This document shows, one piece after another, positions 14,851 to 33,757 of a DNA stretch of 64,000 nucleotides. The stretch is from assembly GCF_000160775.2 (NCBI RefSeq), contig NZ_CM001024.1:285016-349015 (forward strand). Direction: 5' to 3'. This stretch comes from Aeromicrobium marinum DSM 15272 (GTDB lineage: Bacteria > Actinomycetota > Actinomycetes > Propionibacteriales > Nocardioidaceae). The notes under the pieces were generated by a model. The model ran no database searches, was not told the origin of the DNA, and worked only from the letters and a program-made list of their open reading frames with translations. Position 1 is the stretch's first letter. Each line of letters opens with the position of its first letter. A program made the position numbers and the translations under genes.

Positions 14851-14933
14851 GGGCGGTGGATTCGCGACCGAATGGGGGTGGCGGGTGTCAGGTGGACCGA
14901 AAGAGGCCGCATTCGGTCCCGAATCCACCGCCC
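14851..14933. repeat. Modular palindromic repeat, copy A
   Basis: Two 24-nt arms, 14851-14874 and 14910-14933, are inverted copies with one mismatch. Each arm has the form GGGCGGTG-GATTCGCG-ACCGAATG (type 1), whose centre contains ATTCG-N4-CGAAT. The 35-nt interior holds a decayed GGTGG-ACCGAA module. Copies B (15941) and C (18057) share the arms. This copy lies between pmt and the divergent gene at 15018. Confidence 0.85.
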
Positions 14934-15017
14934 GCCGGGATTGTCCACCCGCCGGGACGAGTCCACAGGGAGCGGACGGAGTCGGTGAAGGGCCGGCCGC
15001 GACGGACAGGGTGAGGG

Positions 15018-15965
15018 ATGCGCACCCCCGTCCCCCTCCCAGCAGCACTGGCCGACCGGGCCTTCACGATCCGCGAGGCCGCAGAGCTCGGCATCTCGCG
15101 ACGGATGCTGCGGCACCCTCGCTTCACCGAGATCCATCCCGCGGTGGACCGGCGGTCCGACCTCGTCCTCGACCGTCGAGGCGCGATCGAGGCCGCTCGG
15201 TTGTCGTTGCCGCCCGACGCCGCAGCCAGTCACACCACCAGGCTGGAGCTGGCCGGTCTGTCGATCGGGCCTCCGGGCCTTCACTTCACGATCGGTCGTG
15301 ACCTTCACCTCGAACTCGAAGGAATCGCCCTGCACCGCACCGTCCGGATGCCGCCGACCGGTCGTTCGGGTGTCAGCGCGGCGGCGGCCTTCATCCAGAG
15401 CGCGACGCTGCTGAAGCCGGTCGAGCTGATCGCGGCCGGCGACTGGCTGGTGCGGCACCGCCGGATGACCGAGGCGCAGGTCAGGTCGCTCGCGGCGCGT
15501 GATCCGTGGCGACCGGGCACGGTCGCGGCCCTGGCGGTGCTGCCGCAGCTCAGGCCGGACGCGCGGTCGGTGCCCGAGAGTGAGGTGAGAGTGGCCGTGG
15601 TGGCCGCCGGGCTGGAGGTGCCCGAGATCAACACCGACATCGCCGTCGGCGGCCAGTTCTTGGCGTGCGGCGACCTGGTCTACCGGCGATGGAGACTGGT
15701 CCTGGAGTACGAGGGCAGGCAGCACGCCGAGTCGCCCCAGCAGTTCGCGCGCGACATCGTCCGCTACGCCGACCTGCGCAGCGCGGGGTGGGAGTACCTG
15801 CAGATCACGGCAGCCATGCTCGCCCGGCCGCGGGCGTTGGTGACCCGGATCCACCAGCTCCTGGTGAGCCGTGGATACGACGGGCCACCGCCGGTGTTCG
15901 GGGCCGCGTTCCGGTCCCTGTACGTGCGTCCGCTCCCTCCGGGCGGTGCCCAGCGGACCGTATGA
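15018..15965 (+). CDS. Putative DUF559-like/PD-(D/E)XK endonuclease-fold protein
   Basis: A 315-residue protein of a family often seen in several copies in Nocardioidaceae. The N-terminus (FTIREAAELGISRRMLRHPRF) looks like an AbiEi-type winged helix. The C-terminal part (about residues 180-285) has an E (PESEVRV), a D and EYEGRQH spacing like the Vsr/DUF559 nuclease fold, followed by RYADLRSAGWEYLQIT. Catalysis is not demonstrated. The gene is bracketed by palindromic repeat copies A and B; copy B overlaps its last codons and supplies the stop. I call the fold with moderate confidence and no cellular role. Confidence 0.6.
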   Translation: MRTPVPLPAALADRAFTIREAAELGISRRMLRHPRFTEIHPAVDRRSDLVLDRRGAIEAARLSLPPDAAASHTTRLELAGLSIGPPGLHFTIGRDLHLELEGIALHRTVRMPPTGRSGVSAAAAFIQSATLLKPVELIAAGDWLVRHRRMTEAQVRSLAARDPWRPGTVAALAVLPQLRPDARSVPESEVRVAVVAAGLEVPEINTDIAVGGQFLACGDLVYRRWRLVLEYEGRQHAESPQQFARDIVRYADLRSAGWEYLQITAAMLARPRALVTRIHQLLVSRGYDGPPPVFGAAFRSLYVRPLPPGGAQRTV

Positions 15966-16022
15966 GCTCGCATTCGGTCCGTTGGGCACCGCCGAGGTCA
16001 TTCGGTCGCGAATCCACCGCCC
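15941..16022. repeat. Modular palindromic repeat, copy B
   Basis: Three modules. A type 2 arm (15941-15964, core CCCAGCGG) is inverted at 15971-15993 with two mismatches. After 5 nt comes an inverted type 1 arm (15999-16022). The first module encodes the last residues and the stop of the preceding gene. The last arm ends 13 bp before the rsmI -10 box. Confidence 0.85.
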
Positions 16023-16035
16023 AGGGGGGAGGTGA

Positions 16036-16041
16036 GACGAT
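16036..16041 (+). promoter_or_regulatory. Likely leaderless -10 box of rsmI
   Basis: GACGAT ends 6 nt before the rsmI GTG; the -35 position falls in the last arm of repeat copy B. Confidence 0.4.
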
Positions 16042-16047
16042 GCCGGG

Positions 16048-16875
16048 GTGCTGATCCTCGCGGCGACCCCGATCGGACAGGTCGCGGACGCCTCCTCCCG
16101 TCTCGGCCCGGCGCTCGCGGCTGCCGACGTCGTCGCCGCCGAGGACACGCGGCGGTTCCGCCGACTGGTCTCGGACCTCGGCGTCGAGGTGACGGCACGC
16201 GTCGTGTCGTACTTCGAGGGCAACGAGGCGGCCCGCACCCCCGAGCTGGTCGACCACCTCAGGGCGGGCCTGACGGTCGTCCTGGTCACCGACGCCGGCA
16301 TGCCGAGCGTGTCCGACCCCGGCTACCGCCTGGTCGCGGCGGCGATCGACGCCGGCGTGACGGTCACCACCGTCCCGGGGCCCTCCGCGGTGCTCGCGGC
16401 CCTGGCCGTGTCCGGCCTGCCGGTGGACCGCTTCACCTTCGAGGGATTCGCGCCCCGCAAGGCCGGCGACCGGGCCCGGGTGTTCGGCGAGCTCGCCGAC
16501 GAGCGGCGCACCATGGTGTTCTTCGAGTCGCCGCACCGCACCGCCGCCACGCTTGCGGCCATGGCCGACCGGTTCGGCCCTGATCGCCGCGCTGCGGTGT
16601 GCCGCGAGCTGACCAAGACCTACGAGGAGGTCGTGCGGGGATCCCTCGCCGAACTCGCTACCTGGGCTCGCGAGACCGAGAACGGGGTGCGTGGTGAGAT
16701 CACGGTGGTGGTCGACGGCGCACGTCCGGTGGCGCGGACCTACGACACGGCCGCCCTCGCCGCACTGGTGGCCGAGGCCGAGGCCACGGGGATGACCCGC
16801 AAAGACGCGATCGCGGCGGTCGTCGCCAGCACGGGCGTGCGCAAGCGCGAGGTCTACGAGGCCGCGCACGCCTGA
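16048..16875 (+). CDS. rsmI: 16S rRNA (cytidine1402-2'-O)-methyltransferase
   Basis: A 275-residue SAM-dependent tetrapyrrole-methylase-fold enzyme that 2'-O-methylates C1402 of 16S rRNA. It begins [14 protein letters not shown] and has [43 protein letters not shown] and FFESPHR, the standard RsmI blocks. GTG start at 16048 gives the family N-terminus; the frame from an ATG at 16032 is a different frame. purK follows after 44 bp. Confidence 0.93.
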
Positions 16876-16907
16876 GTCCCGGCACGATCCCGGGCCGCGC
16901 GGCTCGA

Positions 16908-16913
16908 TAGTCT
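16908..16913 (+). promoter_or_regulatory. Leaderless -10 box of purK
   Basis: TAGTCT ends 6 nt before the purK ATG. Confidence 0.5.
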
Positions 16914-16919
16914 CGCCGC

Positions 16920-18050
16920 ATGGACGCCCCCCACCTCGCCGTCGTCGGCGGCGGACAGCTCGCCCGGATGATGCAGCAGGCCGCGATCGGCTCGGGCATC
17001 CGGATCCGCCTGCTCGCGGAGGGTCCCGACGTGTCCGCCGCGCAGGTGGTGCCGGACCGTCTCGTCGGGGACCACACCGTGCTGGCGGACCTCGAACGGG
17101 TCTGCGAGGGCGTCGCCGTGGTGACGTTCGACCACGAGCACGTCCCGCCCGAGCACCTGAGGGCGTTGGCGGCGGCCGGACATGCCCCACGTCCCGGGCC
17201 CCATGCGCTGCTCTTCGCCCAGGACAAGGCCGAGATGCGGGCGCGCCTGGCCGAGCTCGGGGTGCCCGGGCCCGCGCACGCGGTGGTCGCGGATCCGCAG
17301 GACCTGACCGACTTCGCCGGACGCGTCGGGGGTTTTCCGGTCATCGTCAAGACCACGCGCGGAGGGTACGACGGCAAGGGCGTGTGGAAGGTCGACGCGG
17401 CGGACGAGGCCGCCGAGGCGTTCGCGTCGGGTCGCACGCTGATCGCCGAGGAGCTGGTGGACTTCCGCCGGGAGCTCTCGGCCCAGGTGGCGCGCCGCCC
17501 GTCCGGTGAGGTCGTCGCCTACCCGGTGGTGCAGTCACGGCAGGACGACGGCATCTGCCGCGAGGTGATCGCCCCCGCTCCGGATCTCGACGCCGGCCTG
17601 GCCGCGCAGGCCGAACAGATCGCCAGGACGTTGGCGGTCGAGCTGGACGTGGTGGGGATGCTGGCGGTCGAGCTGTTCGAGACCTCCGACGGACGGGTGC
17701 TGGTCAACGAGCTCGCGATGCGGCCGCACAACACCGGCCACTGGAGCATCGACGGCTCAGCCACGAGCCAGTTCGAGAACCACTTGCGCGCCGTGCTGGA
17801 CCTGCCGCTCGGCCCGACCGCAGCACGCGCGCCATGGAGCGTGATGGTCAACGTGCTCGGCGGGTCCGTCACCGACCTCGAGGCGCAGCTCGCCGAGGTG
17901 CTCGCGCAGGTGCCCGAGGCGCGGGTCCATCTGTACGGCAAGGCGGTCCGTTCCGGTCGCAAGGTCGGCCACGTGACGGTGGTCGGCGACGACCTCGACC
18001 AGGTGCGCTCCCGTGCCCGCCTGGCCGCCGACCTGCTCGAGAACGGCTGA
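16920..18050 (+). CDS. purK: 5-(carboxyamino)imidazole ribonucleotide synthase
   Basis: A 376-residue ATP-grasp enzyme of purine synthesis that carboxylates AIR with bicarbonate and ATP to N5-CAIR. The N-terminus has VVGGGQLARMMQQAA; the ATP-grasp part has VIVKTTRGGYDGKGVWKV and IAEELVDFRRELS; the metal-binding segment reads LVNELAMRPHNTGHWSIDG. It pairs with purE, which uses its product. The two genes are separated by repeat copy C, so they are not a simple overlapping operon. Confidence 0.95.
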   Translation: MDAPHLAVVGGGQLARMMQQAAIGSGIRIRLLAEGPDVSAAQVVPDRLVGDHTVLADLERVCEGVAVVTFDHEHVPPEHLRALAAAGHAPRPGPHALLFAQDKAEMRARLAELGVPGPAHAVVADPQDLTDFAGRVGGFPVIVKTTRGGYDGKGVWKVDAADEAAEAFASGRTLIAEELVDFRRELSAQVARRPSGEVVAYPVVQSRQDDGICREVIAPAPDLDAGLAAQAEQIARTLAVELDVVGMLAVELFETSDGRVLVNELAMRPHNTGHWSIDGSATSQFENHLRAVLDLPLGPTAARAPWSVMVNVLGGSVTDLEAQLAEVLAQVPEARVHLYGKAVRSGRKVGHVTVVGDDLDQVRSRARLAADLLENG

Positions 18051-18056
18051 CCCCGA

Positions 18057-18166
18057 GGGCGGTGGATTCGCGACCGAATGGCTCCGTCGGTGGGGATGCG
18101 ACCGTTTGAGCGTCCATTCGGTCCGCTGGGCACCGCCGGCCTCTTTCGGTCGCGAATCCACCGCCC
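18057..18166. repeat. Modular palindromic repeat, copy C
   Basis: Type 1 arms at 18057-18080 and 18143-18166 are inverted copies over 24 nt with one mismatch. Between them lies an inverted type 2 module (18115-18137) 5 nt before the last arm, the same spacing as in copy B. The copy fills the purK-purE gap and ends 12 bp before the purE -10 box. Confidence 0.87.
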
Positions 18167-33683: not shown

Positions 33684-33695
33684 CCGAGCGGTCGT

Positions 33696-33741
33696 ACGAC
33701 GAAGCCGGCCCCCTCCTGCGGGAGGGGGCCGGCTTCGTCGT
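33696..33741. terminator. Strong bidirectional terminator
   Basis: A 21-bp perfect stem with the tetraloop TGCG (33717-33720) lies between the convergent large-protein and tatB genes. It should stop transcription from both sides. Confidence 0.9.
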
Positions 33742-33757
33742 GGTGCGGGGCCGTGCG

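Follow-up and report, generated by a model that had tools for sequence, protein, structure and literature searches.

The whole stretch of Aeromicrobium marinum DNA analysed here (hereafter the window) comprises 64,000 nucleotides, positions 285016-349015 of the single contig of a 3,079,740-bp genome, and carries three copies of a modular palindromic repeat in the neighbourhood of pmt, rsmI and purE. Element A (14851-14933) lies between pmt and a divergently oriented nuclease gene, element B (15941-16022) overlaps the 3' end and the stop codon of this nuclease gene and precedes rsmI, and element C (18057-18166) occupies the purK-purE gap, beginning 6 bp past the purK stop codon; the start codons of rsmI and purE are found 25 bp past the ends of B and C, respectively. 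The three are 3-, 3- and 4-module versions of a single design, namely + + - in A (14851-14874 (+), 14880-14903 (+, degenerate) and 14910-14933 (-)), + - - in B (15941-15964 (+), 15971-15994 (-) and 15999-16022 (-)) and + + - - in C (18057-18080 (+), 18085-18108 (+, degenerate), 18115-18138 (-) and 18143-18166 (-)). The gene bracketed by A and B (15018-15965, + strand) encodes a 315-aa protein that joins an AbiEi-like N-terminal domain to a nuclease domain of the Vsr/DUF559/MTES_1575 type, and is the candidate cognate gene of these repeats.

A preliminary description of this DNA had placed three copies built of 24-nt modules at these same coordinates, and all of them are there, but the degenerate modules 14880-14903 of A and 18085-18108 of C had to be added. 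The succession of a type 2' and a type 1' module common to B and C is likewise real, but the linker between them measures 4 nt, not 5, and in place of only two core types many more were found. As to the three neighbouring promoters at which the copies were said to sit, the actual positions are a space between divergent genes (A), a nuclease stop codon (B) and the sequence just past the purK stop codon (C).

The repeat population of the genome

Sequence was read in the stretches around the elements and around the nuclease genes, and genes were called with a codon-usage script. The module of this family (family 1) is 24 bp long and has the form GGGCGGTG-N8-ACCGAATG; the window holds 13 matches to it with up to three mismatches, as compared to a mean of 1.6 and a maximum of 6 in shuffled sequences. 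Genome-wide, matches to the type-1 24-mer (GATTCGCG) at up to three mismatches number 54, versus none for the reversed control, and the family-1 modules form 30 elements of 54-121 bp. Each element contains 2-4 modules, mostly in the order + + - -, with an invariant centre of fixed length, 6 bp. Facing + and - modules are 30 bp apart from start to start, giving 54 bp for a two-module element, and modules on the same strand are 28-29 or 39 bp apart, a difference of about one helical turn. The outermost modules are mainly of type 1 or near it and are better conserved than the inner ones, which are variable, and the fixed half-sites are retained even where the cores fail to pair. A second repeat family in the same genome has the sequence GGCGGTAGGTGAGCAACCGAATG and a spacing of 31. 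The element sequence differs from species to species, and a search of the GTDB contig collection for exact matches, in which near records were possibly left out, returned a single one, in an Acidobacteria MAG (L067).

The location of the elements is strongly biased. A 3'-end position, with the nearest stop codon at -53 to +16 bp, is occupied by 25 of the 30 elements; convergent gene pairs surround ten, in the form TGAcccc...ggggTCA and with no downstream start, whereas divergent pairs surround only three, element A among these. It had been suggested that a mobile REP-like element might have become a regulatory module at promoters. The first half of this proposal pointed in the right direction, since A, B and C are not alone and there are 30 dispersed, palindromic, intergenic copies. 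A relation to promoters is largely lacking, however, so that the regulatory half is unsupported.

The elements have stable predicted folds, and the hairpin is followed by a G-rich sequence, with neither a T-run nor a U-tract. Core pairing proved no better than in shuffled controls in this genome (G000) and in the related G011, but it exceeded them in G004 and G032, possibly through a mixture of module subfamilies. Since pairing stays at the shuffled level in G000 and G011, the main constraint lies elsewhere than in hairpin pairing, and selection for an RNA hairpin was rejected in that capacity. The usual bidirectional terminators of the genome, as found at 33684-33757 of the window and in the convergent gaps of two other stretches (L083, L101), are GC-rich hairpins of near-perfect pairing, each with a stem of some 20-25 bp and a TTCGTCGT-like end, and are unlike the elements. 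Canonical terminators were rejected because they differ from the elements in sequence and design, and integron attC and Xer/dif sites, considered for their layout of two arms plus a spacer, because their sequences do not fit. By inspection, no target-site duplication was seen in the flanks of the 30 elements, the ends of which are inverted; nor, again by inspection, is there a GTAG or CGTC tetranucleotide at the foot of the hairpin, family-1 modules beginning with GGGCGGTG.

Nuclease genes and the repeats around them

The AlphaFold model of the protein encoded between A and B has a mean pLDDT of 95. Among solved structures, the best Foldseek match of the C-terminal domain is the catalytic domain of the homing endonuclease I-Bth0305I (3r3p; TM 0.80 on target, probability 1.00 and a modest E of 0.038), which is listed, weakly, by a profile search of PDB sequences as well, and residues E187, D219, E230 and H236 are invariant in 56 homologues. 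The N-terminal model is best matched by the AbiEi antitoxin 6y8q (probability 0.99 and a modest Foldseek E of 0.011), and AbiEi profiles match 39 of the 56 members. The Pfam scores of the protein are under the curated cut-offs, so that the family names are approximate. No AbiEii (DUF1814) toxin gene adjoins it, the neighbours being pmt and rsmI, and an AbiE toxin-antitoxin identity was rejected on this ground. The inverted repeats bound by AbiEi proteins are 23 bp long, and Rv2827c occupies four such repeats, separated by gaps of 4 bp and 13 bp (PMC7319586); I-Bth0305I forms a dimer on its target, which spans nearly 60 bp (PMC3943268). We infer that the 54-bp two-module element could accommodate a dimer on its two inverted modules, with the cut in between. 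The preliminary suggestion that the repeats are recognised by some factor thus also pointed the right way, the likely cognate protein being encoded between A and B.

The arrangement of this gene recurs. At the same syntenic locus of G004, the nuclease gene lies between G004-type elements; in G011, a homologue at another locus lies between G011-type elements; and in the genome studied here, a 45% identical paralogue lies between elements of family 2. A de novo test, applicable to any gene, asked whether the two flanks share an inverted repeat, with a threshold score of at least 16: it was positive for 53 of the 70 nuclease homologues versus 0 of 295 other genes, and all high scorers of the control set, four in number, turned out to be nuclease genes. 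For the other 17 homologues, no clear flanking inverted repeat was found at this threshold. Similarity of the repeats follows the identity of the proteins (Spearman rho 0.43; permutation maximum 0.10). Paralogues from the same genome, 55 pairs in all, never have repeats in common. The module count is associated with the presence of a close nuclease (p 0.002), yet weakly, because one fixed pattern misses the cores of most species. Outside the family, but within the order, flanking repeats occur beside about 12 of 31 homologues. Some of the homologues there (L341, L346, L349, L354) lie between palindromes of quite another sequence, e.g. TGGTGGGTTAACCCA, which suggests that the pairing of gene and repeat is older than the genus. 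A search of open-licence papers found no account of a connection between dispersed palindromes and proteins of the DUF559, AbiEi or MTES_1575 type.

A third nuclease paralogue led to the prediction of a third repeat family, which a genome search then confirmed. This gene (G000 C1:1783700-1784561, L312), apparently split by a frameshift into two overlapping reading frames, is bracketed by CCCAGAAGTGCTCCCGAACCAACC, and a search with this sequence yielded 22 arms versus 0 in the control; these lie in the two elements beside the gene and at ten loci elsewhere. The third family has the best-preserved palindromes (65 bp; 24+17+24), whose two arms often carry an identical variant, although the nuclease gene looks frameshifted. 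A fourth, remote homologue (G000 C1:654848-655636, L313) is flanked by a fourth palindrome, CGAGTGGCGCAGTT, with more copies in two other stretches (L102 near 1344 and L103 5491-5566), so that a fourth gene-repeat pair is likely present in the genome.

Repeats and nuclease genes in related species

Comparison of related species of the genus, with one genome per species, revealed populations of their own, of the same architecture and with different, species-specific cores: AGTGTTCC in G032, and GATCCTCC, GATCTGCC and similar ones in G004 and G011. The distance between + and - modules is identical in 49 of 51 pairs when these three species are taken together. At shared loci, the core matches the host genome, not the site; thus, the purK-purE gap contains an element both in G000 and in G032, each with the core of its own genome. 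Element sites common to different species are few, their count being too small for a firm rate. In G033 and G008 (L150, L151), the purK-purE gap holds an unrelated repeat (GACGGCTCGTTCCTCGCCGTCGC and similar), from which it appears that this gap attracts or tolerates repeats.

The pmt-rsmI gap contains the nuclease gene in 17 species. Across the genus, this gap may be empty, contain an element only (G011, G012) or contain the element-gene-element unit in either orientation, and in many relatives it is only 50-140 bp long and has no element. Four species (G005, G066, G028 and G018; L267, L268, L273 and L275) have the gene reversed relative to G000, as if flipped between inverted flanks, and G070 (L376) has a 300-bp gap without the nuclease and with another palindromic sequence, CATCTCATGGCAGATCTGCCCTGAGATGTG. 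The divergence of the nuclease at pmt-rsmI tracks that of rsmI (rho 0.75; 0 of 999 permutations), which indicates mainly vertical inheritance at this locus.

A nuclease-associated counterpart of REP/RAYT pairs?

When this system is set beside those already described, the likeness to REP/REPIN-RAYT systems (REPtrons, TIRtrons; PMC3116915, PMC3733652, PMC8049555) is extensive. In both cases, palindromes, mostly inverted pairs, are dispersed over intergenic sites, within 20 bp of 3' ends in the case of REPs (PMC3733652) and at about this distance here; the cognate gene lies between its own repeats, with one repeat family per paralogue; and the gene is mainly inherited vertically, as are the single-copy RAYTs, around which repeat populations are found (PMC8049555). 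Unlike these systems, the protein is an unrelated AbiEi-nuclease fusion without an HUH/Y1 domain, there is no GTAG or CGTC foot, the modules come in threes and fours at fixed spacing, and the copies number tens, not hundreds. The Y1 (HUH) transposase profile PF01797, positive in five control genomes, has no match in the genome studied here, and a Y1/RAYT transposase is thereby ruled out as the mobiliser. Hence, the system works like REPIN-RAYT but is not a member, since both the defining Y1 transposase and the GTAG/CGTC foot are missing. With the CGTC-tagged REPs, described as lacking a dedicated transposase (PMC3733652), it has in common a REP-like population without a known enzyme of this kind, in other sequences and other phyla.

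Nor is this a known homing system or a toxin-antitoxin pair. The protein resembles AbiEi antitoxins, including Rv2827c (PMC7319586), in its N-terminal fold, and its repeats, like theirs, are inverted, 23-24 bp long and grouped in twos to fours, the gaps differing by about 10 bp in length; here, however, a nuclease fusion replaces the antitoxin domain, no toxin gene adjoins and the repeats are found all over the genome. With EDxHD homing endonucleases (I-Bth0305I; PMC3943268), the protein has in common the catalytic fold, the conserved E, D, E and H and the expectation of a long target, whereas it is encoded outside any intron or intein, its DNA-binding domain is a distinct one and it is paired with a non-coding repeat population. 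MITE and IS-derived elements also have inverted ends, but no target-site duplication was seen here.

Comparison of sequences establishes the repeat population with its architecture and 3' location, the pairing of gene and repeat, the specificity of each paralogue and the domain make-up of the protein. Accounting for all of these, the elements are probably a REP/REPIN-like population that is recognised, and propagated, by an AbiEi-nuclease fusion and not by a transposase; each such family, with its own nuclease gene between the same repeats, looks like an undescribed counterpart of REP/RAYT pairs. Under this scenario, each 24-bp module would be a site bound by the AbiEi-like N-terminal domain of the cognate nuclease, which for A, B and C would be the protein encoded between A and B, and a nuclease dimer would find its target, about 54 bp long, in a pair of inverted modules with the fixed 6-bp centre between them. 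Cutting, at the target or nearby, would fall to the Vsr/homing-endonuclease-like C-terminal domain, whereupon repair or recombination could copy the elements into 3'-end intergenic sites and make the cores in each genome alike. The autonomous unit would consist of the nuclease gene and two flanking elements; the inheritance of the gene would be mainly vertical, like that of RAYT genes, while the surrounding repeat population would turn over. On balance, we consider this whole explanation, with modules bound and cut by a cognate nuclease and copied by repair, rather more probable than all others together. Counting against it are the 17 homologues that lack a clear flanking repeat, the apparent frameshift of the third nuclease gene despite its well-preserved repeats, the low Pfam and modest Foldseek scores, the missing sign of a target-site duplication and the small number of sites common to different species. 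A more specific version, to which we would give somewhat less than even credence, holds that these are transposase-independent mobile palindromic elements: the fusion would bind the 24-bp modules and cut the 6-bp centre, break repair would copy both the cassette and the non-coding elements, and a genome would harbour several mutually orthogonal lineages, a situation extending across one order of Actinomycetota.

Several other explanations deserve consideration. The modules might be AbiEi-like operators serving autoregulation and a wider regulon, with the nuclease domain incidental and no movement involved. AbiEi and Rv2827c do autoregulate through arrays of 23-bp inverted repeats (PMC7319586), and the same-strand spacings about one helical turn apart, as well as the half-sites retained where cores fail to pair, would suit such operators; the 25 of 30 elements at 3' ends and the ten between convergent genes would not, nor would the presence of elements on both sides of the nuclease gene and not on the promoter side alone, and we regard this explanation as unlikely. 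We take an equally reserved view, if not a slightly more sceptical one, of a domesticated nuclease useful to the host that recognises or processes palindromes in defence, chromosome organisation or cruciform resolution, with copying rare or extinct. It would agree with the mainly vertical inheritance at pmt-rsmI, with the description of RAYTs as domesticated (PMC8049555) and with the occurrence of AbiEi-like domains in defence systems; taken alone, it leaves the dispersed copies, the genome-wide turnover of cores and the several families per genome unexplained.

It is still less probable that the elements are MITE-like and moved by another transposase, with the nuclease gene as cargo or a frequent neighbour, even if they are short, with inverted ends and outer modules better conserved than inner ones: target-site duplications were not seen, no other type of gene is bracketed among the 295 controls, and the pairing with one protein family is constant over many different repeats. 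The strict 3' location and the stable predicted folds could also point to elements preserved for their function as terminators or RNA-stabilising hairpins, an explanation that we consider very improbable given the missing U-tract, the different look of the usual terminators, core pairing at chance in G000 and G011 and the pairing with nucleases, which it does not address. Least credible of all is the promoter-associated regulatory module of the preliminary description. B and C do end 25 bp ahead of the rsmI and purE start codons, but most elements follow stop codons, many of them without a downstream start, and many relatives have a short, element-free pmt-rsmI gap; moreover, a TAGGGT-like box just before purE is kept in relatives that have no element there, so that this box, a likely promoter, is independent of the repeat.

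Should the nuclease-driven copying that we propose prove true, the system would be categorically new. The pairing of gene and repeat described here suggests that an unrelated protein may have given rise to the REP-RAYT arrangement a second time. For some REP populations, such as the CGTC REPs, no dedicated enzyme is known, and the pairing supplies a population of this kind with a candidate; it also suggests a role for a group of AbiEi/DUF559-like proteins, which existing family models hardly detect. The scenario predicts which DNA each paralogue would bind, as well as a cut at the invariant 6-bp centre, and the several gene-repeat pairs would offer natural sets of orthogonal protein-DNA pairs.
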